From NCBI GenBank assembly GCA_946630785.1, contig CAMOZC010000006.1, forward strand, positions 1 through 34,131: a DNA stretch of 34,131 nt, in the 5' to 3' direction. Made by a program: the position numbers and the translations under genes. This document shows, one piece after another, positions 94 through 32,916 of this stretch (position 1 is its first letter; every line of letters begins with the position of its first letter). Below the pieces are notes generated by a model. The model did not search any database. It saw only the letters and a program-made list of their open reading frames with translations, and was not told the DNA's origin. This DNA is from an uncultured Clostridia bacterium. GTDB taxonomy: Bacteria > Bacillota > Clostridia > Christensenellales > UBA1242.

Positions 94-124
94 AAAAAGC
101 CCGACGTGCGCGGGCTTTTTTTTA
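94..124. terminator. Rho-independent terminator, probably bidirectional (serves the upstream + strand gene and mfd)
   Basis: AAAAAGCCCG-ACGTGCG-CGGGCTTTTTTTT hairpin with T-tract. Confidence 0.85.
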
Positions 125-2290
125 TGCGTTAATTTCGTCACGGCGGGCGCGGTTTTCGGCAGCAATTTCGGATAAGATTTGCGCAAAGGCTTCGATGCCA
201 ATTTCTTCAATGTGACCGCTTTGGTTGGCGCCCAAGACTTCGCCTGAACCGCGGATTTCCAAATCACGCATGGCGATGTTAAAGCCAGCGCCAGTTGAAT
301 AGAAATTTTTAATCGCGTTGATGCGTTCCATGGCTTCGTCGGCAATGTAATCGGCGTGTGGAAAAGTTAAGTAGGCGTAGGCTTGGGTGGTACTGCGTCC
401 CACACGTCCGCGTAATTGGTGCATTTGGGCTAAGCCTAATTTATCCGCGCCAATTACGAATAAGGTATTAGCGGTGGTTAGGTCGATACCGTTTTCCAAA
501 ATGGTGGAAGCGACAATGATATCAATTTCGTGTTCATAAACCGCGGTAATGGTGCGTTCAATTTGTGCGGTAGGCATTTGTCCGTGGACATAGCCGACTT
601 TGTCAGGGTAACGTGCGGCAATCTTGGCGGCAAAGCGCTCCATATCTTTGACTTGGTTATAAATGACAATGACTTGACCATGACGGTTGAGTTCGGCGTC
701 AATCGCGTCCCACAGTAATTCCCAACTAAATTCAGCCACTTTGGTGATAACGGGTAAACGGTCTTTGGGTGGAGTGGTAATAACCGAAATATCGCGTAGT
801 CCCATCAGTGACAAATTCAGCGTACGAGGAATCGGGGTGGCGGATAAAGTCAGTACGTCAATGTGTGGAGTTAGTTTCTTGATTTTTTCTTTGGCTTCAA
901 CACCGAAACGTTGTTCTTCGTCCAGAATCAAAAGTCCTAAGTGGTGAAAGTTTTCTTTGGTTAGTGAAAGTAATTTATGCGTACCGATAATAATGTCAAT
1001 TTTGCCGTCACGTAAATCGGCTAAAATTTGCGCTTGTTGTTTGGCGGTAATAAAGCGGTTATAAACTGCCACACGGATGCCAAATTGTTGGAAACGGGCC
1101 AGTGCGTTTTGGTAGTGTTGTACCGATAAAATTGTGGTCGGGCAAAGAATGACAACTTGGTAGCCATTCATGACTGCGGAAAAAGCTGTCCGGAACGCGA
1201 TTTCGGTTTTACCATAACCAACGTCGCCACAAACTAAGCGGTCCATTAATTTGGGGCTGGTTAAATCTGCATAAATGTCGTCCATGACTTTGGCTTGGTC
1301 TTTGGTTAATTCGTGTGGAAAACTTGCCGCAAAAGCAGCGTTGTTGTCGGCAAAAATTTCGTAAGGGGGACGTTTAAGCGCGGCACGTTGTCGGTATAAA
1401 TCACTTAGTTTGAAGGAAAGTTCTTGCAGTCGGCGCCGAACCCGTTGCTTCGCATTGGCGAAGTCTTGCCCTCCAATTTTGTGTAAACGCGTGGGCTCGC
1501 CAACGTAGTTAGATAACATGTCAACTTTGTCTTTAGCAAGGTAGACCATCGTGCCGCCGTCATACTGCAAAGCGAAGTATTCTGCGACATTACCGTCACC
1601 AAGTAAATCAAGTTGCTTCATGCCCATAAAACGACCAATTCCGTGCAAGGAGTGAACGACACATTCACCAACCAAAGGCATAATGAATTCTTTTTTGGTT
1701 TTAGTAATTAAACTGCTGACATCGGCATTCTTGCCAGGATTAGTGTCTGTTAAACTGTAAATTAATAAATCATCAATCTGACAAGATAAAGGAAAGGTGG
1801 ATGGAATGAGATTAATTAATCCCGGGAAAGCAACACCTTTTGTGATGACGAAATCGATTTTTTTACTACGTAAATAATTTTCGGCGGTTTTGGTATTACC
1901 AACAAAAATCAAAACTGTTTGATTTTTAACCGTGGCAAGTTCGTCAGCCAACAAAGATACAGCGCTGTTATAGTTGGGTAAAATTGCCGTTGGTGCAGTA
2001 ACCTTAGACCAGTCACGGTCAGGGCAGATAGTTTTTAAAATGTCTAGTGCTAAAGAAAAACTTAAGTCTGTGCCCAAATTTACCAAAGGTAATTTTTTGA
2101 CGAAAGCGCGTGTGTTGGCATCAATCAGGCGTAAATCTTCAATGGTGTCGCCATCAAACATAATGCGGACAATTTCTGTTTGTGTTGGTAAGGTTACGTC
2201 AATGATGTCACCGTGTGTCGTAACTTCGTGGTCTTTCAATGCAGTTTTAACCGCATCCATGGAAATGTTTTGTCCAACGGTTAAGGTCAT
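122..2290 (-). CDS. mfd: Transcription-repair coupling factor Mfd, compact form
   Basis: RID/CarD-like segment GECVVHSLHGIGRFMG, helicase motifs GDVGYGKTE, LDEEQRFGV, LSATPIPRTL, QLRGRVGRS, and DLEIRGSGEVLGANQSGHIEEIG. Start overlaps the pth stop (ATGA). Confidence 0.95.
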   Translation of the reverse strand: MTLTVGQNISMDAVKTALKDHEVTTHGDIIDVTLPTQTEIVRIMFDGDTIEDLRLIDANTRAFVKKLPLVNLGTDLSFSLALDILKTICPDRDWSKVTAPTAILPNYNSAVSLLADELATVKNQTVLIFVGNTKTAENYLRSKKIDFVITKGVAFPGLINLIPSTFPLSCQIDDLLIYSLTDTNPGKNADVSSLITKTKKEFIMPLVGECVVHSLHGIGRFMGMKQLDLLGDGNVAEYFALQYDGGTMVYLAKDKVDMLSNYVGEPTRLHKIGGQDFANAKQRVRRRLQELSFKLSDLYRQRAALKRPPYEIFADNNAAFAASFPHELTKDQAKVMDDIYADLTSPKLMDRLVCGDVGYGKTEIAFRTAFSAVMNGYQVVILCPTTILSVQHYQNALARFQQFGIRVAVYNRFITAKQQAQILADLRDGKIDIIIGTHKLLSLTKENFHHLGLLILDEEQRFGVEAKEKIKKLTPHIDVLTLSATPIPRTLNLSLMGLRDISVITTPPKDRLPVITKVAEFSWELLWDAIDAELNRHGQVIVIYNQVKDMERFAAKIAARYPDKVGYVHGQMPTAQIERTITAVYEHEIDIIVASTILENGIDLTTANTLFVIGADKLGLAQMHQLRGRVGRSTTQAYAYLTFPHADYIADEAMERINAIKNFYSTGAGFNIAMRDLEIRGSGEVLGANQSGHIEEIGIEAFAQILSEIAAENRARRDEINA

Positions 2291-5140: not shown

Positions 5141-5167
5141 GGGCAATCCGTACGGGTTGTCCTTTTT
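5141..5167 (+). terminator. Rho-independent terminator after rplL
   Basis: GGGCAATCCG-TA-CGGGTTGTCCTTTTT hairpin. Confidence 0.75.
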
Positions 5168-5279
5168 GTTTGTCGTTAATTTTTTTGCGGTAAGAAGCAC
5201 TTGTGATTTAGTGGAGGTGGGTAGTATACTGGAAATAGTATTTGTGATAAAAGCAGGGTACTGTCTAAGGAGAAAACAT

Positions 5280-6653
5280 ATGCCTAAGAAATCACTTATT
5301 GCAGTATTAGGTGCGGTTGTGTTAATGGTGGTGGCGTCCATTGCCTTGGTGTTTACAGTTGGACCTATGGCTAGCGCGGACAGCGAAGAAATTGTACCAG
5401 TGGATACCACCAAATATTTAAATATTGATAGTAATGGTGTTTTGGGTGATGGTAGTTCGACGTGGTGTAATGCGTTTAATGCTGCAGGCAGAAAATGGAT
5501 TGAAAAGAAAAAATACCGCGTGGAAATTCCTGATACAGTAACCAGTATTGGTCGTAACGCGTTCCAGAAATGTAATGGCTTAGTGGATATTGAAATTCCT
5601 GCTACTGTGACAAAAATTGGTGCTTATGCTTTCGATGGCTGTATTAATCTAACGAGTATTGAAATTCCGTCTAGTGTGACCAGTATTGACTACGATGCAT
5701 TTGCTTGTTGTAATAATTTAATTAGTATTACCATTCCAAACAGTGTCGCAAGCCTTAGTAGTCGTATATTTAAGGGTTGCAGCGGTTTAACGAGTGTTGA
5801 TATCCCAAGCAGTGTGACAAGTATTGGTGATTACGTGTTTTCGGATTGTGGTAACTTAACCAGTGTTGAAATTCCGTCTGGCGTGACAAATATCGGCGAA
5901 TATGCGTTCAATGGCTGTAGTAGTTTAACGAGTATTGAAATTCCGTCCGGTATTACAAATATTAGTAATGGTATGTTTTCTGGCTGTATTGGATTAACGA
6001 ATCTTGAAATTCCTTCCAGTGCTACCAGAATCGGTTCTTATGCGTTTAAAGATTGCCGTGGTTTAACTGAGATAGTAATTCCTTCCGATGTCACCAGTAT
6101 TGGTGACGCTGCATTCATTGGCTGCAGTGGCTTAATGAATATAGAAGTTCCGTCTAATGTGACAAGCATTGGCGCTCTCGTATTCAAAGATTGTAGCAAT
6201 TTAATTGAAATTATTGTTCGTAATTTGGATTTAATGACTGACCAAGATTTGCAACTATATGCAGATAAATTACATTATGGTGCAAACCAAAATAAAGTTA
6301 CTTTTTACACGATGGGTGGCACTGAAGTTTCGGTACAAATGATTGACTTTGGAGAAATTGCCGAAGAACCATCGGCACCAACCAAAGAAAATGCTATCTT
6401 TTTGGGTTGGTATTTAGATGAAGCATTCACCAAGCCATATACCTTTGATACATCCGTTAAATATGACATCGACTTATACGCTAAATGGGAACAACTTCAA
6501 CCAGAAACTCCAGTGGAACAAAGCACTAGTATAAGTGTAAAAAAACAAAACAATAGCGGTTTAATTGGTGCTCTCTTCGTTTGTTCTGCTATTATGTTGA
6601 GTGCTGGTGGTGCAGCGGGATATTTTTTCATTTATAAACGTCGCCGCAAATAA
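5280..6653 (+). CDS. BspA-like leucine-rich repeat (LRR_5) surface protein with an InlB B-repeat and C-terminal TM
   Basis: N-terminal signal/TM, about ten repeats of the type IEIPSSVTSIGxxAFxGCxxLTS, then VTFYTMGGTEVS...FLGWYLDEAFTKPYTF...LYAKW, then LIGALFVCSAIMLSAGGAAGYFFIYKRRRK. SD AAGGAG before ATG 5280. Confidence 0.88.
   Translation: MPKKSLIAVLGAVVLMVVASIALVFTVGPMASADSEEIVPVDTTKYLNIDSNGVLGDGSSTWCNAFNAAGRKWIEKKKYRVEIPDTVTSIGRNAFQKCNGLVDIEIPATVTKIGAYAFDGCINLTSIEIPSSVTSIDYDAFACCNNLISITIPNSVASLSSRIFKGCSGLTSVDIPSSVTSIGDYVFSDCGNLTSVEIPSGVTNIGEYAFNGCSSLTSIEIPSGITNISNGMFSGCIGLTNLEIPSSATRIGSYAFKDCRGLTEIVIPSDVTSIGDAAFIGCSGLMNIEVPSNVTSIGALVFKDCSNLIEIIVRNLDLMTDQDLQLYADKLHYGANQNKVTFYTMGGTEVSVQMIDFGEIAEEPSAPTKENAIFLGWYLDEAFTKPYTFDTSVKYDIDLYAKWEQLQPETPVEQSTSISVKKQNNSGLIGALFVCSAIMLSAGGAAGYFFIYKRRRK
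5560..6210 (+). repeat. Tandem degenerate coding repeat (LRR_5 units, about 69 nt / 23 aa)
   Basis: Recurrent attccgtctagtgtgaccagtattggt...ttcaaaggctgtagtaatttaacgagt units. Confidence 0.8.
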
Positions 6654-14373: not shown

Positions 14374-15300
14374 ATGAAAAAATCTTTGATTCTAGTTCAT
14401 GTTTTTGCTCTTCTTGCGGTGGCGGTTTATGCCGTGGTGGCGGTCGTTTTCTTTTTTAATGACAAAAACAAAGTTGGTGCGGCCGATGAAGTTTTACCCG
14501 ACGGAATTTATACGGTAACTTTTGATTCACGCGAGGGCACGGCGGTTGATTCACAGCAGGTTGCCAGTGGTAATAAAGTCAAGGAACCAAAGGCACCAAG
14601 TCGTAGCGGTTGCAACTTTTTAGGCTGGTATTCTGATGTTGCTTGCGAACAAATCTTTCATTTTGATACACCAATTACTAATAGCATTACATTGTATGCT
14701 AAGTGGGAAACAGTCTATTATACAATAACTTTTGACGTGCGTGGTGGAGCAGCAATTGCGCCTAAGACTGTTGTTAGTGGCACAAAAATCAAAGCCCCAA
14801 CTCCGGTTTGGGAAGGCTTTGAATTCATCGGTTGGTTTAGTGATGAAGACTGTACCACGCCATTTGATTTCACCAAGCCAATTGATAGTGACAAAACCTT
14901 GTATGCGAAATGGTCGCTTGAATTAAAAAAGTCAGAGGATGGTTTGTCATATATCATTGATAAATATAACGGTGACGCGGAAAATGTAGTTCTACCAGCA
15001 ACTTATAATGGTTTACCTGTAACCGCGATTGGCGCCTTTGCTTTTGAAAATTGCACGACAGTTAAATCAATTATAATTTCTGATGGTATCAAAAATATTG
15101 AAATGTGTGCTTTCTATGGTTGCAGTAACTTGACAACAATTTTGATTCCTGAAAGTGTGACAGAAATTGATGCTGCAGTATTTAGGCATTGTTCATCGTT
15201 GACGGTAATTAATTGTGTAGCAAGCAGTCAACCAGCAGGGTGGAATGCGAATTGGAATAAATATTGCAACGCAGAAGTAGTCTTCGGTTATCAGGGCTAA
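14374..15300 (+). CDS. Secreted/anchored protein with two InlB B-repeats and LRR_5 units
   Basis: N-terminal TM; YTVTFDSREGTAVDSQQVASGNKV...FLGWYSD...LYAKW twice; ITAIGAFAFENCTTVKSIIISDGIKNIEMCAFYGCSNLTTILIP. Confidence 0.82.
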   Translation: MKKSLILVHVFALLAVAVYAVVAVVFFFNDKNKVGAADEVLPDGIYTVTFDSREGTAVDSQQVASGNKVKEPKAPSRSGCNFLGWYSDVACEQIFHFDTPITNSITLYAKWETVYYTITFDVRGGAAIAPKTVVSGTKIKAPTPVWEGFEFIGWFSDEDCTTPFDFTKPIDSDKTLYAKWSLELKKSEDGLSYIIDKYNGDAENVVLPATYNGLPVTAIGAFAFENCTTVKSIIISDGIKNIEMCAFYGCSNLTTILIPESVTEIDAAVFRHCSSLTVINCVASSQPAGWNANWNKYCNAEVVFGYQG

Positions 15301-19198: not shown

Positions 19199-20224
19199 AT
19201 GACAAGCAATCAAAATTTAAGGGCTGCAAGTAAAGCGAAAAACGATGAATTTTACACACAATTAGTTGATATTGAATTAGAATTAAAACATTACAAGGAA
19301 CATTTTAAAAACAAAGTTATTTTTTGTAATTGTGATGACCCTTATGAAAGTAATTTTTTCAAATACTTTGCCATGAATTTTAACTATTTAGGTTTGAAAA
19401 AATTAATTGCCACTTGTTATGATAATTCGCCAATTGTTTATACTCAGTTTTCTATATTGGGTGTAAATGAAAATAAAATCTATCCAAACGAAAATCGTCA
19501 TGCTTATAAAATTGAAATTAACGAAGTTGAAGATATGAATCATGACGGGGCAATTGATTTAAGTGATGTGCAGTTGTTATTACAAAACAAAAAGAACACT
19601 CTTGTCCACTTAAAGGGTGATGGCGATTTTCGTAGTGAAGAATGTGTTGAACTTTTAAAACAAGCCGACATCGTTGTAACTAATCCGCCATTTTCTTTGT
19701 TCCGTGAATATGTATCTCAACTCGTAGAGTATAATAAAAAATTTTTAATTATCGGCAATAAAAATGCGATTACATATAAAGAAATTTTCAAACTAATTAA
19801 AGAAAATATGTTATGGCTTGGTTATAGAAATATCAATTCGGATATGTGGTTAATAGTTCCCGGAAATTATGCTTGTGAAAAAGTAATTGATGGAAAAAGA
19901 TTAAAACATATTATGGCGTGTTGGTTTACAAATCTTGAAACGACAAAAAGACATGAAAACTTGATTTTGTATAAACACTATAATCCTGATGAGTATCCCA
20001 AATATGATAATTATGACGCCATTAATATTGATAAAACATGTGATATTCCTTGCGACTATGATGGTTGTATGGGGGTTCCAATAACATTTTTGGATAAGTA
20101 TAACCCTGACCAGTTTGAAATTCTTGGCGATAGTCGATTCCATGATGGGCAAGAATTTTCAGATGATATAAATATTCTTAATGGTAAGGCTCTTTACAGA
20201 CGACTTCTAATCCGTAGAAAATAA
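19199..20224 (+). CDS. EcoRI-family adenine-specific DNA methyltransferase
   Basis: KNDEFYTQ, VIFCNCDDPYESNFFKYF, LKGDGDFRSEEC, IVVTNPPFSLFREY (motif IV NPPF). Confidence 0.85.
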   Translation: MTSNQNLRAASKAKNDEFYTQLVDIELELKHYKEHFKNKVIFCNCDDPYESNFFKYFAMNFNYLGLKKLIATCYDNSPIVYTQFSILGVNENKIYPNENRHAYKIEINEVEDMNHDGAIDLSDVQLLLQNKKNTLVHLKGDGDFRSEECVELLKQADIVVTNPPFSLFREYVSQLVEYNKKFLIIGNKNAITYKEIFKLIKENMLWLGYRNINSDMWLIVPGNYACEKVIDGKRLKHIMACWFTNLETTKRHENLILYKHYNPDEYPKYDNYDAINIDKTCDIPCDYDGCMGVPITFLDKYNPDQFEILGDSRFHDGQEFSDDINILNGKALYRRLLIRRK

Positions 20225-20247
20225 TAAATTCTTAATAAGGAGAAAAA

Positions 20248-21357
20248 ATGGAAATTAAATTACACGAAATTTTAGTAAAAGATGTTGTTAATGGTTACAA
20301 GGATAGCCAAGAAAATGGTGTTGTTGGGTTCGGTGGGAAATTAAATATTCGTCCGGTGTATCAAAGAGAGTTCGTTTATAAAGAAAAACAACGCAATGCC
20401 GTCATTGAAACACTACGACAAAATTTCCCGCTAAATGTGATGTATTGGGCGGAAACCGATGACGGCAATTACGAATTACTAGACGGACAACAAAGAACAC
20501 TGAGTATTTGCCAATATGTGAATAATGACTATTCTATCAATAGTCGTGGCTTTGAAAATTTAACCCAAGCAGAAAAAGACCAGGTTCTCAATTACAAATT
20601 GATGGTGTATATCTGCAAGGGTAACGATAAAGAAAAATTAGACTGGTTTAAGATTATCAATATCGCTGGCGTTCAACTGAAAGAACAAGAATTGCGTAAC
20701 GCAATTTATACTGGACCATGGTTGTCGGATGCAAAACGCTATTTCAGTAAAATTGGTTGTGTGGCTTATCAAATTGGTAACAAATATGTTAATGGCGAAG
20801 TCAACCGTCAAGATTATTTAGAAACTGCATTAAGTTGGATTGCAGCAAAAGAAAATATCAAATTGGAAGATTATATGGCTAATCATCAACACGATACTCA
20901 CGCAACACCATTGTGGCAATATTTCCAAAATGTAATTAACTGGGTGGAAAGTATTTTCCCGCATTATCGCAAAGAAATGAAGGGTTTGGAGTGGGGTTTG
21001 TTGTATAATGCTTATGGTCAAAAAAACTATAACCCGCAAGAATTAGAAACAAAGATTGTTGAGCTGATGCAGGACGATGATGTTACCAAACGCAGTGGTA
21101 TTTATGAATACTTATTAAGTGGCAACGAAAAGTTTTTAAATATTCGCGCATTTACCGATAATGAAAAACGCCAAGTTTACGAACGACAACAAGGTATTTG
21201 TCCGCATTGTAAAAATGAACATCGCGAAAAAACACATTATGAAATTGAAGAAATGGAAGCCGACCACATTACGCCTTGGTGCGAAGGCGGCAAAACCGAA
21301 GTTGCAAACTGCCAAATGCTTTGCCGCGAACACAATCGAATGAAGAGTAGTAAATAA
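20248..21357 (+). CDS. DUF262 + HNH endonuclease domain protein
   Basis: N-terminal IRPVYQREFVYKEKQRNAVIETLRQNFPLNVMYW...YELLDGQQRTLSICQ (DGQQR). C-terminal CPHCKNEH...EADHITPWCEGGKTEVANCQMLCREHNRMKS. SD AAGGAG. Confidence 0.88.
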   Translation: MEIKLHEILVKDVVNGYKDSQENGVVGFGGKLNIRPVYQREFVYKEKQRNAVIETLRQNFPLNVMYWAETDDGNYELLDGQQRTLSICQYVNNDYSINSRGFENLTQAEKDQVLNYKLMVYICKGNDKEKLDWFKIINIAGVQLKEQELRNAIYTGPWLSDAKRYFSKIGCVAYQIGNKYVNGEVNRQDYLETALSWIAAKENIKLEDYMANHQHDTHATPLWQYFQNVINWVESIFPHYRKEMKGLEWGLLYNAYGQKNYNPQELETKIVELMQDDDVTKRSGIYEYLLSGNEKFLNIRAFTDNEKRQVYERQQGICPHCKNEHREKTHYEIEEMEADHITPWCEGGKTEVANCQMLCREHNRMKSSK

Positions 21358-21415: not shown

Positions 21416-21492
21416 TGGTGCGAACGAGAGGATTTGAACCTCCAAGAATGCGCTTCTGAGACGCACGCGTATGCCAGTTCCGCCACGCTCGC
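21416..21492 (-). tRNA. tRNA-Leu (CAG), short variable loop, CCA encoded
   Basis: GCGAGCG TG GCGGAACTGGCATACGC G TGCGT-CTCAGAA-GCGCA TTCTT GGAGG-TTCAAAT-CCTCT CGTTCGC ACCA (77 nt). Confidence 0.92.
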
Positions 21493-21555
21493 AAGTGGTA
21501 TAGCATAAATCATTTCGGCGTCTTTGTCAAAAGTTGCGGGTACCTGGAAAAAGGT

Positions 21556-21590: not shown

Positions 21591-24173
21591 GTGGTATTAA
21601 AACGCATTATGATGAATGGCTTCAAGTCGTTCGCTGACAAAATCGAAATTGATTTTGGCAGTGGTATTACTGGAATTGTTGGACCGAATGGTTGCGGTAA
21701 GAGTAATGTTAGTGATGCGATTAAATGGGTATTAGGGGAACAAAGTTATAAAGCGGTGCGTGGTTCTTCCATGCAGGACGTTATCTTTAAGGGTACGGCA
21801 AATCGTAAAATGCAGTCGTACGCCGAAGTTGCATTGGTCTTTGATAACCGCACCCGTGTTTTTGATATTGATGAAACTGAAGTTACAATTTCACGTAAGT
21901 TGTACCGTGACGGTGAAAGCGAATATGCGTTAAACGGGCAACCGACACGTTTGAAGGATATTAACAACTTATTACATGACAGTGGTATCGACCGTGACGG
22001 TCTAACGATTATCAGTCAGGGACAAGTTGCCAACTTGGTCGCGGCTAAACCTGAAGACCGCCGTGGTATTTTTGAGGAAGCGGCGGGTATTGCAAAATTC
22101 CGTGCGCGTAAAGATGAGGCCGAACGTAAACTTGACCGTACCACGCAAGAATTGGTACGTGTTAGTGATGTCTTGGCAGAAATTGAACGTAACTTGGGTC
22201 CATTGATGAAGCAGGCGGAAAAGGCTCAAAAATATTTACAATTAAAAGAAGAATTAAAAAAATTAGAAATCAATTTATTTATTTATAAGTATGACCATGT
22301 GGCCGAAGAAAAAGCCAAAGCCCAAGCCGAAGCCGATGGCTTAGACAAAGAATTAAAACAACTACAAGCACAGTTGGAAATGATGGATCGTGCCAGCGCT
22401 AATGGCATGCAAGAGTTATCAGCCTTAGATAAAAAAGTGGCTGAATTGCGCGACCAAATTTTAGCCTTGTCTTTGGACAATCAACGTCAAAGTGGTGAGC
22501 AATTATTGTATCAAGCTACGGCGGACAGTTTGCACCAAGCCGAATTACAACGTGAACAATTACTTTCTAAAAAACAAATGATTGCGAACATTATTGATTC
22601 GGGTGAAGGTTTTAAATTCAGTGTTAAAAAATTAATCGAAGAACGTAATCGTAACAGTGCGGTAGCACGGGCGATTGTTGGTGTCGTTTCGCAAGAGTTA
22701 TCCGTACCGCCTGAATTAGAAACTGCGATTGAAATGGCTTTGGGTGCGGCGGCGCAAAACGTTATTACACATGATGAAGATGATGCGAAAGAATTAGTGC
22801 ATTTATTAGCTAGTAAGAATTTGGGACGGGCAACTTTCTTGCCAATTACGGCGGTCAAGGCACGTGACATTAAACCTGATGAACGTGCAATTTTGCGTGG
22901 TATGGGTCAGCGTGTTTTAGGTGTTGCCAGTGAGTTAGTAGAATATAAACCGGAAATCGCAGGAGTTGTTTCTAACTTACTGGGTCGCGTGATTGTGTGT
23001 GATAATCTTGATTCGGCAATTGCTTTGTCGCGTCAAGCCCACTATGCGTTTAAAGTTGTGACTTTGGACGGTGATATTATTGAACCACGCGGTAGCATTA
23101 CCGGTGGTAGCAAGAATGCCGTTACCAATACTTTGTGGCATACTAACAACTTAAAACAAATCGAAGCCAACTTGGTAGAAGTGGATAAAAACATTGCTGC
23201 TTTGCGCGAAAAGTTGAACCAATTAAAAGTTGATACGAAAGATAATCATGTCAGTGAAGCACAAACCAAATTGGAACAATTAAAAGATGAGTTGGCGAAG
23301 ACTATTGCCGAACGTGATAATTTGCATTACGCCACAGGAACATCGGTTTCGGGTCGTACGGAACTATCAGAGCAAATTAACGCTTTACAAGTAAAATACT
23401 ATTACGCAACTAATTTGTTAACCCGTATGGATGCTGAAATTGAAAACTTAAGTCAACGTATTACTGAAGAATACAATTTGAATTATAGCGCTTGTTACGA
23501 ACAACGTGACCCTGAATTTGATATTGTAGCGGCAGAACCACGTATTGAGGAACTGCGTCGTGCCATCCATCATTTGGGTAATGTTAATTTGGATGCGATT
23601 GAACAAGTTAAAGCCGACAGCGAACGTTACGAAACCTATAAAGCCCAAAGCGATGATTTGTTTGCGGCGAAACAAGATTTGGAAAAAGTTATGCGCGATT
23701 TGTCGCAACAAATGGAAAAGAATTTTAAAACCGCTTTTGAACAAATCAATAAAAACTTTGGCACAGTCTTCTCTGAGTTGTTTGGTGGTGGTACCGCTAA
23801 ATTGGTTTTGACTGATGCGGAAAATTTCTTGGAATGTGGTATTGAAATTATTGCCGAACCACCGGGAAAGAAACTTTCTTCGAACCTGTCTTTATTGTCG
23901 GGTGGTGAAAAGGCTTTGACCGCAATCGCGATTTTGTTTGCCATCTTGAAATACAAGAGTATGCCTTTCTGTTTGCTCGATGAAATTGAAGCGGCCTTGG
24001 ATGATGCGAACGTTACCCGTTTCGCCAGTTACTTGCATCACTTCTCGGGCGATACTCAGTTTATTGTAATTACCCACCGTAAGCCAACTATGGAACTGGC
24101 TGACCGCCTTTATGGTATTACCATGGAAGAAAAGGGTGTCAGCAAGATTGTCTCGGTAAAATTGGCAGAATAA
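21591..24173 (+). CDS. smc: Chromosome segregation protein SMC, short-arm form, GTG start
   Basis: GFKSFADKIEIDFGSGITGIVGPNGCGKSNVSDAIKWVLGEQS; hinge ALGAAAQNVI...GRATFLPI...DGDIIEPRGSITGGS; LSGGEKALTAIAILFAIL and LLDEIEAALDDANV. Confidence 0.95.
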   Translation: MVLKRIMMNGFKSFADKIEIDFGSGITGIVGPNGCGKSNVSDAIKWVLGEQSYKAVRGSSMQDVIFKGTANRKMQSYAEVALVFDNRTRVFDIDETEVTISRKLYRDGESEYALNGQPTRLKDINNLLHDSGIDRDGLTIISQGQVANLVAAKPEDRRGIFEEAAGIAKFRARKDEAERKLDRTTQELVRVSDVLAEIERNLGPLMKQAEKAQKYLQLKEELKKLEINLFIYKYDHVAEEKAKAQAEADGLDKELKQLQAQLEMMDRASANGMQELSALDKKVAELRDQILALSLDNQRQSGEQLLYQATADSLHQAELQREQLLSKKQMIANIIDSGEGFKFSVKKLIEERNRNSAVARAIVGVVSQELSVPPELETAIEMALGAAAQNVITHDEDDAKELVHLLASKNLGRATFLPITAVKARDIKPDERAILRGMGQRVLGVASELVEYKPEIAGVVSNLLGRVIVCDNLDSAIALSRQAHYAFKVVTLDGDIIEPRGSITGGSKNAVTNTLWHTNNLKQIEANLVEVDKNIAALREKLNQLKVDTKDNHVSEAQTKLEQLKDELAKTIAERDNLHYATGTSVSGRTELSEQINALQVKYYYATNLLTRMDAEIENLSQRITEEYNLNYSACYEQRDPEFDIVAAEPRIEELRRAIHHLGNVNLDAIEQVKADSERYETYKAQSDDLFAAKQDLEKVMRDLSQQMEKNFKTAFEQINKNFGTVFSELFGGGTAKLVLTDAENFLECGIEIIAEPPGKKLSSNLSLLSGGEKALTAIAILFAILKYKSMPFCLLDEIEAALDDANVTRFASYLHHFSGDTQFIVITHRKPTMELADRLYGITMEEKGVSKIVSVKLAE

Positions 24174-32786: not shown

Positions 32787-32862
32787 TGGTGTCAGCGACA
32801 GGACTTGAACCTGCAGAAACTGGTTCCTAAGACCAGCGCGTATGCCATTCCGCCACGCTGAC
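32787..32862 (-). tRNA. tRNA-Leu (TAG), short variable loop, CCA encoded
   Basis: GTCAGCG TG GCGGAATGGCATACGC G CTGGT-CTTAGGA-ACCAG TTTCT GCAGG-TTCAAGT-CCTGT CGCTGAC ACCA (76 nt). Confidence 0.92.
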
Positions 32863-32916
32863 ATGCAAAGTATTATAACTGATAAATCAGGATTTGTGCA
32901 AGTCGTTCTCGTGCCA

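Follow-up and report, generated by a model that had tools for sequence, protein, structure and literature searches.

Two short leucine tRNA genes

We analysed a stretch of 34,131 nucleotides, hereafter the window, from an uncultured Clostridia bacterium of the order Christensenellales (assembly GCA_946630785.1, contig CAMOZC010000006.1). The window corresponds to contig 6 of a draft genome of 895 kb, which consists of 68 contigs and is 89% complete. It contains two leucine tRNA (tRNA-Leu) genes, with anticodons CAG and UAG, which have a variable loop of 5 nt and lack the long variable arm of type II tRNAs; both have the 4–6-nt loop of a type I tRNA together with A73 and A14. The two genes and their parts are as follows:

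21416 to 21492, minus strand: tRNA-Leu(CAG), type I, 77 nt including the encoded CCA (ARAGORN; Rfam RF00005, 52.7 bits; cloverleaf fold)
21444 to 21448, minus strand: variable loop TTCTT of tRNA-Leu(CAG), 5 nt, stemless (direct reading of the sequence)
21456 to 21458, minus strand: anticodon CAG of tRNA-Leu(CAG) (ARAGORN)
32787 to 32862, minus strand: tRNA-Leu(UAG), type I, 76 nt including the encoded CCA (ARAGORN; Rfam RF00005, 61.8 bits; fold)
32815 to 32819, minus strand: variable loop TTTCT of tRNA-Leu(UAG), 5 nt (direct reading of the sequence)

ARAGORN placed both genes at exactly these positions, and both matched RF00005 over their full length, well above the cut-off of 29 bits. Acceptor and T stems are of the standard 7/5 arrangement in both. 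The minimum-energy fold of each tRNA was a cloverleaf without a variable stem, but shuffled controls were nearly as stable (z = −0.8 for tRNA-Leu(CAG)), and folding alone is weak evidence for either cloverleaf. Both are stand-alone genes, situated outside any tRNA array or recognisable prophage. An earlier note made from the sequence alone had described the CAG gene as a genuine leucine tRNA without a type II arm, counting its bases as 7+2+17+1+17+5+17+7+ACCA = 77 nt with the variable loop TTCTT. This count is exact and its description of the CAG gene holds; the note did, however, present a single gene and overlooked the UAG gene in the same window.

We compared both tRNAs to the elements by which leucyl-tRNA synthetase (LeuRS) recognises its substrates. 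An identity review (PMC9976931) gives the E. coli determinants as A73, the A15-U48 trans-Levitt pair, G18G19, A20a and contacts between the D and T loops; it reports activity in variants without the anticodon and variable arms, and confines sequence-specific recognition of the long arm to archaea. A73, A14, A15-U48, G18G19 and A20a were all present in both short tRNAs, which bears out the claim that the CAG gene has a Leu-like D arm and A73. The single consistent departure is at base 20b, which is U and not G in both. In a survey of this base, type II genes had G/U at 50/1 (51 parsed) and bacterial type I genes had G/U/A/C at 44/23/10/2; a link between the 20b change and type I genes is suggestive only, as the sampled lineages are uneven. 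U48 and A73 were found in 79/79 parsed bacterial type I tRNA-Leu, with neither base set by the search pattern.

Conservation, origin and the leucine tRNA set of the genus

Of the ten genomes of the genus, eight carry a type I gene for CAG, UAG or both, with the 5-nt-loop tRNA-Leu(CAG) present in separate assemblies of seven members at 97–100% identity. Across the genus both short tRNAs are 97–100% identical, compared to 52–78% for their 60-nt flanks. A record titled Prevotella sp. NALB_7821b_27 (JAMPCO010000037.1) also carries the tRNA-Leu(CAG) of this genus, and its name seems to be wrong.

Sister genera and families carry type II CAG, UAG and AAG genes. The earlier note had proposed that its reading would fall if closer relatives had a normal arm, but every genus member carrying the CAG gene is armless at this gene, and the normal arm was confined to sister genera, except that the deepest-branching genome placed in the genus (G003; SMC 61% identical) has it for UAG. 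The UAG gene of G003 is type II, with an arm region of 12 nt; its T stem matches that of the window tRNA-Leu(CAG), there is one G-U/G-C change between the acceptor stems of these two tRNAs, and the anticodon arm of the G003 gene is similar to that of the window tRNA-Leu(UAG). Given the type II genes of the sister genera and these likenesses to G003, loss of the arm within this lineage is the simplest reading and most likely, as judged from the sequences compared.

Alternatively, the genes could have been acquired from a phage or a tRNA array, replacing resident type II genes. Type I tRNA-Leu are frequent in viral contigs (at least 92 parsed in the sampled loci) and also occur in bacterial tRNA arrays, for example in Chryseobacterium, yet both window genes lie outside such arrays and outside any recognisable prophage, and no viral tRNA was clearly closer among the matches listed. 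For the UAG gene, viral matches were 62/69 and 62/70 versus 63/71 for the type II genes of relatives, and for the CAG gene 62/71 versus 63/69. The stems shared between the CAG gene and the type II UAG gene of G003 also speak for descent within the lineage, and we consider acquisition from outside unlikely.

All 40 tRNA matches of the genome were typed. The remaining leucine tRNAs are type II: CAA (87 nt), UAA (87 nt) and AAG (85 nt). The serine tRNAs (GGA, UGA, CGA and GCU) and the tyrosine tRNA are also normal type II. The whole-genome comparison of leucine, serine and tyrosine isoacceptors which the earlier note had suggested therefore leaves CAG and UAG as the only type I members. Pattern searches found no type II CAG or UAG gene in the genus members that carry the short genes. 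It should be noted that such searches can miss variant D arms, as in Chryseobacterium, and for this reason all tRNA genes were enumerated in three further members (G002, G005 and G006). In these and in the window genome (drafts 88–90% complete) there was no type II tRNA-Leu(CAG) or tRNA-Leu(UAG), and the only long tRNAs were four serine tRNAs, one tyrosine tRNA and the leucine tRNAs CAA, UAA and AAG. By the wobble rules, CUG is unreadable by the remaining tRNAs, while CUA might also be readable by the AAG tRNA if A34 is converted to inosine. CUG therefore has no reader other than the two short tRNAs, and the same holds for CUA barring inosine-34 in the AAG tRNA.

Promoter-like sites and the conserved neighbour of the CAG gene are found at the following positions:

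21502 to 21530, minus strand: promoter-like TTGACA-17-TATGCT of tRNA-Leu(CAG) (consensus scan, 10/12 matches)
32872 to 32901, minus strand: promoter-like TTGCAC-18-TATAAT of tRNA-Leu(UAG) (upstream sequence read by eye)
21591 to 24173, plus strand: smc, divergent neighbour of the CAG gene (NCBIfam SMC_prok_B, 933.7 bits)

The scan for the CAG gene is weak when taken alone, with 0.8 such sites expected by chance in the region, but a similar site recurs 5' of tRNA-Leu(CAG) in members of the genus despite flanks which otherwise diverge. A conserved gene with a promoter-like site of its own, tRNA-Leu(CAG) does not resemble a pseudogene. If both genes were accessory or degenerate, CUR codons would have to be read by tRNAs missing from the assemblies. 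The drafts are 73–90% complete, and in the other bacteria examined a type I gene is mostly an extra copy, both of which would fit this. Against it stand the intact stems and promoter-like sites of the two genes, their high conservation amid diverging flanks, and the absence of type II CAG and UAG genes from the four enumerated members and from the pattern search of the others. We regard this possibility as highly improbable; a type II tRNA-Leu(CAG) elsewhere, with the present gene as a pseudogene, was named in the earlier note as a way in which its reading could fail, and none was found in the genome or the three further enumerated members.

Codon meaning and recognition by LeuRS

We compared LeuRS and SMC of 8–9 genus members with those of 10 genomes from other genera and families. 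For CTG (91 codons), 52% of cells and 38/45 of the columns conserved at ≥ 70% had leucine; for CTA (26 codons), 48% of cells and 7/10 conserved columns did. The yardstick codons TTA and TTG were on leucine in 52% and 55% of cells. No residue other than leucine was enriched at CTG or CTA in these two alignments. CUA and CUG thus fall on leucine as often as UUA and UUG, so that, judging from the alignments, CUR is leucine and the genetic code is unchanged. Reassignment of CUR codons, as known for CUG in some yeasts, would involve a tRNA of another family remodelled to carry a CAG or UAG anticodon. A short loop with an NAG anticodon is how such a tRNA would be expected to look, and reassignment is favoured by codon rarity, with CUR at 12% of the leucine codons in window genes and 9% in LeuRS and SMC. 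We nevertheless reject it as very improbable on the codon test, and the D arm, A73 and A15-U48 give both tRNAs a Leu-like body. Least credible of all is removal of the arm by an assembly or sequencing error, which the earlier note had allowed for: nothing in its favour was found, and the same 5-nt loop recurs in separate metagenome assemblies with natural variants inside it (TTCTT/TTTTT for CAG, TTTCT/TTTTT for UAG), which excludes one shared assembly error.

The genome has a single LeuRS gene above the family cut-off (L040:1492–3879, minus strand). Its product of 795 aa is a full-length bacterial-type enzyme that has the HIGH and KMSKS motifs as well as the editing and anticodon-binding domains, and it aligns end to end with bacterial structures including those of Thermus (1h3n/2byt) and E. 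coli (4aq7). It is 43–49% identical to relatives outside the genus, and 51 alignment positions are fixed differently from at least 9/10 outgroup genomes. There are also small deletions near the C terminus in the genus compared to the outgroups. Among the fixed differences is the editing motif, where TTRPDT has become TTCIET in the genus, an unusual alteration for a conserved proofreading site.

A bacterial-type LeuRS reads A73 and the elbow of the tRNA (A14, A15-U48, G18G19, A20a and the D-loop/T-loop contacts) and not the anticodon or the variable arm. As these determinants lie outside the arm, LeuRS should still charge both short tRNAs with leucine; since the long arm is missing, seryl-tRNA synthetase is not expected to accept them. 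Loss of the arm is probably explained by its small share in the identity information used by bacterial LeuRS, together with the rarity of the codons that these isoacceptors serve (about 9–12% of leucine codons) in a genome undergoing reductive evolution. We consider it highly probable that these are two functional tRNA-Leu genes whose arm was lost in one lineage of uncultured gut and rumen Clostridia with reduced genomes, and that they are now the sole decoders of CUG (and of CUA barring inosine-34).

Several points weigh against this reading. U48 also follows A15 in 50/64 non-Leu type I tRNAs of bacterial loci, and the survey pattern itself prescribed A15, so that the A15-U48 survey is weaker than it appears; this pair is, from the sequences surveyed, partly a structural pairing rule. 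The codon test covers LeuRS and SMC, and the conserved columns for CTA by itself are few. With genus genomes 73–90% complete, the absence of type II genes is firm only across several genomes and not in one. The genes and their conservation, the lack of type II CAG and UAG genes, the reading of CUR as leucine and the retained identity elements are observed directly; expression, charging by LeuRS, the order of events and the cause of loss in only these two isoacceptors are inferred.

A further and more tentative idea, which we think doubtful, is that the TTCIET motif and the C-terminal region of LeuRS may have become co-adapted to the short tRNAs. The genus would then combine a split set, with UUR and CUY read by type II tRNAs and CUR only by armless tRNA-Leu, with one fast-evolving LeuRS.

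Neighbouring genes, other type I tRNA-Leu and implications

In the genus members where tRNA-Leu(CAG) was found, it adjoins the start of smc. The SMC protein of the window is 860 aa in length and is about 854–863 aa in most of the genus, compared to about 1,200 in sister genera; it retains both ATPase ends and the hinge, and its coiled-coil arms are therefore about 340 residues shorter. The flank downstream of tRNA-Leu(CAG) is unconserved within the genus. Here an EcoRI-type adenine methyltransferase is followed by a GmrSD_N and HNH protein (19199–21357, plus strand), ending about 60 bases past the 3' end of the tRNA. The Mfd protein (122–2290, minus strand; 722 aa) falls under the family cut-off and covers positions 208–820 of the 907 in the profile, with the N-terminal part missing. 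Two predicted secreted leucine-rich repeat proteins (5157–6653 and 14374–15300, both plus strand) are BspA-like by eye, the first with a likely membrane anchor at its end.

The absence of the arm is, as the earlier note stated, a departure from normal bacterial tRNA-Leu, but it is not unique to this lineage. A collection scan found type I tRNA-Leu, among the matches listed, in Bacteroidota, Acidobacteriota, Cyanobacteria, Alpha- and Gammaproteobacteria, Myxococcota, Elusimicrobia, Saccharibacteria and several Clostridia. In a sample of 399 genomes of the phylum, true pattern matches were found only in the genus of the window; three further matches were false positives, namely type II genes whose arm contains GTTC. 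In most of the 14 genomes examined the type I gene was accompanied by a type II gene with the same anticodon, and it seems rare for a type I tRNA-Leu to be the sole reader of a codon. A pattern search suggested a sole UAG reader in Chryseobacterium, which was rejected when tRNA enumeration found a type II UAG gene with a variant D arm. In Chryseobacterium daecheongense (G419:C4:88869–90624) a type I tRNA-Leu(UAG) lies in an array of at least 14 tRNAs, and similar type I genes occur in many Chryseobacterium and Epilithonimonas genomes among the matches listed. The type I tRNA-Leu of viral contigs (L265–L344) are mostly UAG with loops of 5–6 nt, and no description of them was found in the literature searched. 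Phage BLAST matches to both tRNAs, most of them aligning with insertions of 7–9 nt, were left out of the type I examples.

Compared to bacterial type II tRNA-Leu such as E. coli CAG, the window genes share the D arm pattern, A14, A15-U48, G18G19, A20a, A73, anticodons and codon meaning, and differ in having no variable stem, a 5-nt loop and U at 20b, where G is near-universal in type II. With the type I genes of viruses, Chryseobacterium, Bradyrhizobium, Microbulbifer and Elusimicrobia they share a length of 74–79 nt, a loop of 5–6 nt, A15-U48, A73 and leucine anticodons; in the bacterial genomes examined, however, the type I genes are extra copies beside type II genes of the same anticodon, whereas the window genes are stand-alone and the only isoacceptor. 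Candidatus Uzinura diaspidicola (complete genome, 263 kb) also has a type I sole codon reader in a reduced genome, its only tRNA-Leu(UAA) of 74 nt, but it belongs to another phylum, the isoacceptor differs and the origin is presumably independent. Allo-tRNAs, with 8/4 or 9/3 acceptor domains, are likewise non-standard bacterial tRNAs, some with leucine anticodons, from which the window genes differ in their standard stems and short variable arm. The animal mitochondrial tRNA-Leu, which are type I and charged by mitochondrial LeuRS, also have a short loop, keep A73 and A14 and work in broadly this way; the window genes, in contrast, lie on a bacterial chromosome, have full canonical D and T loops, and stand beside other leucine isoacceptors which keep the arm. 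Their bodies are Leu-like and close to clostridial genes, which does not fit an organellar origin.

A 2023 review describes the long variable arm as universal for tRNA-Leu outside animal mitochondria. Full-text literature searches, with subscription literature largely outside their reach, found no earlier report of a bacterial type I tRNA-Leu, which is not proof of absence. A genus in which 2/5 leucine isoacceptors are armless and sole readers is an exception to this stated rule. The exception is real, conserved and functional-looking, and it is best explained by loss of an arm dispensable to bacterial LeuRS, in rare-codon isoacceptors of a reduced genome. Annotation which relies on arm length as a marker for leucine could misread such genes. 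The genus allows the laboratory finding that E. coli LeuRS needs no arm to be tested in nature, and it offers a bacterial parallel to the loss of the arm in mitochondria. If LeuRS is indeed co-adapted and armless decoding of CUR is genus-wide, it would show how the mitochondrial condition can start in bacteria.
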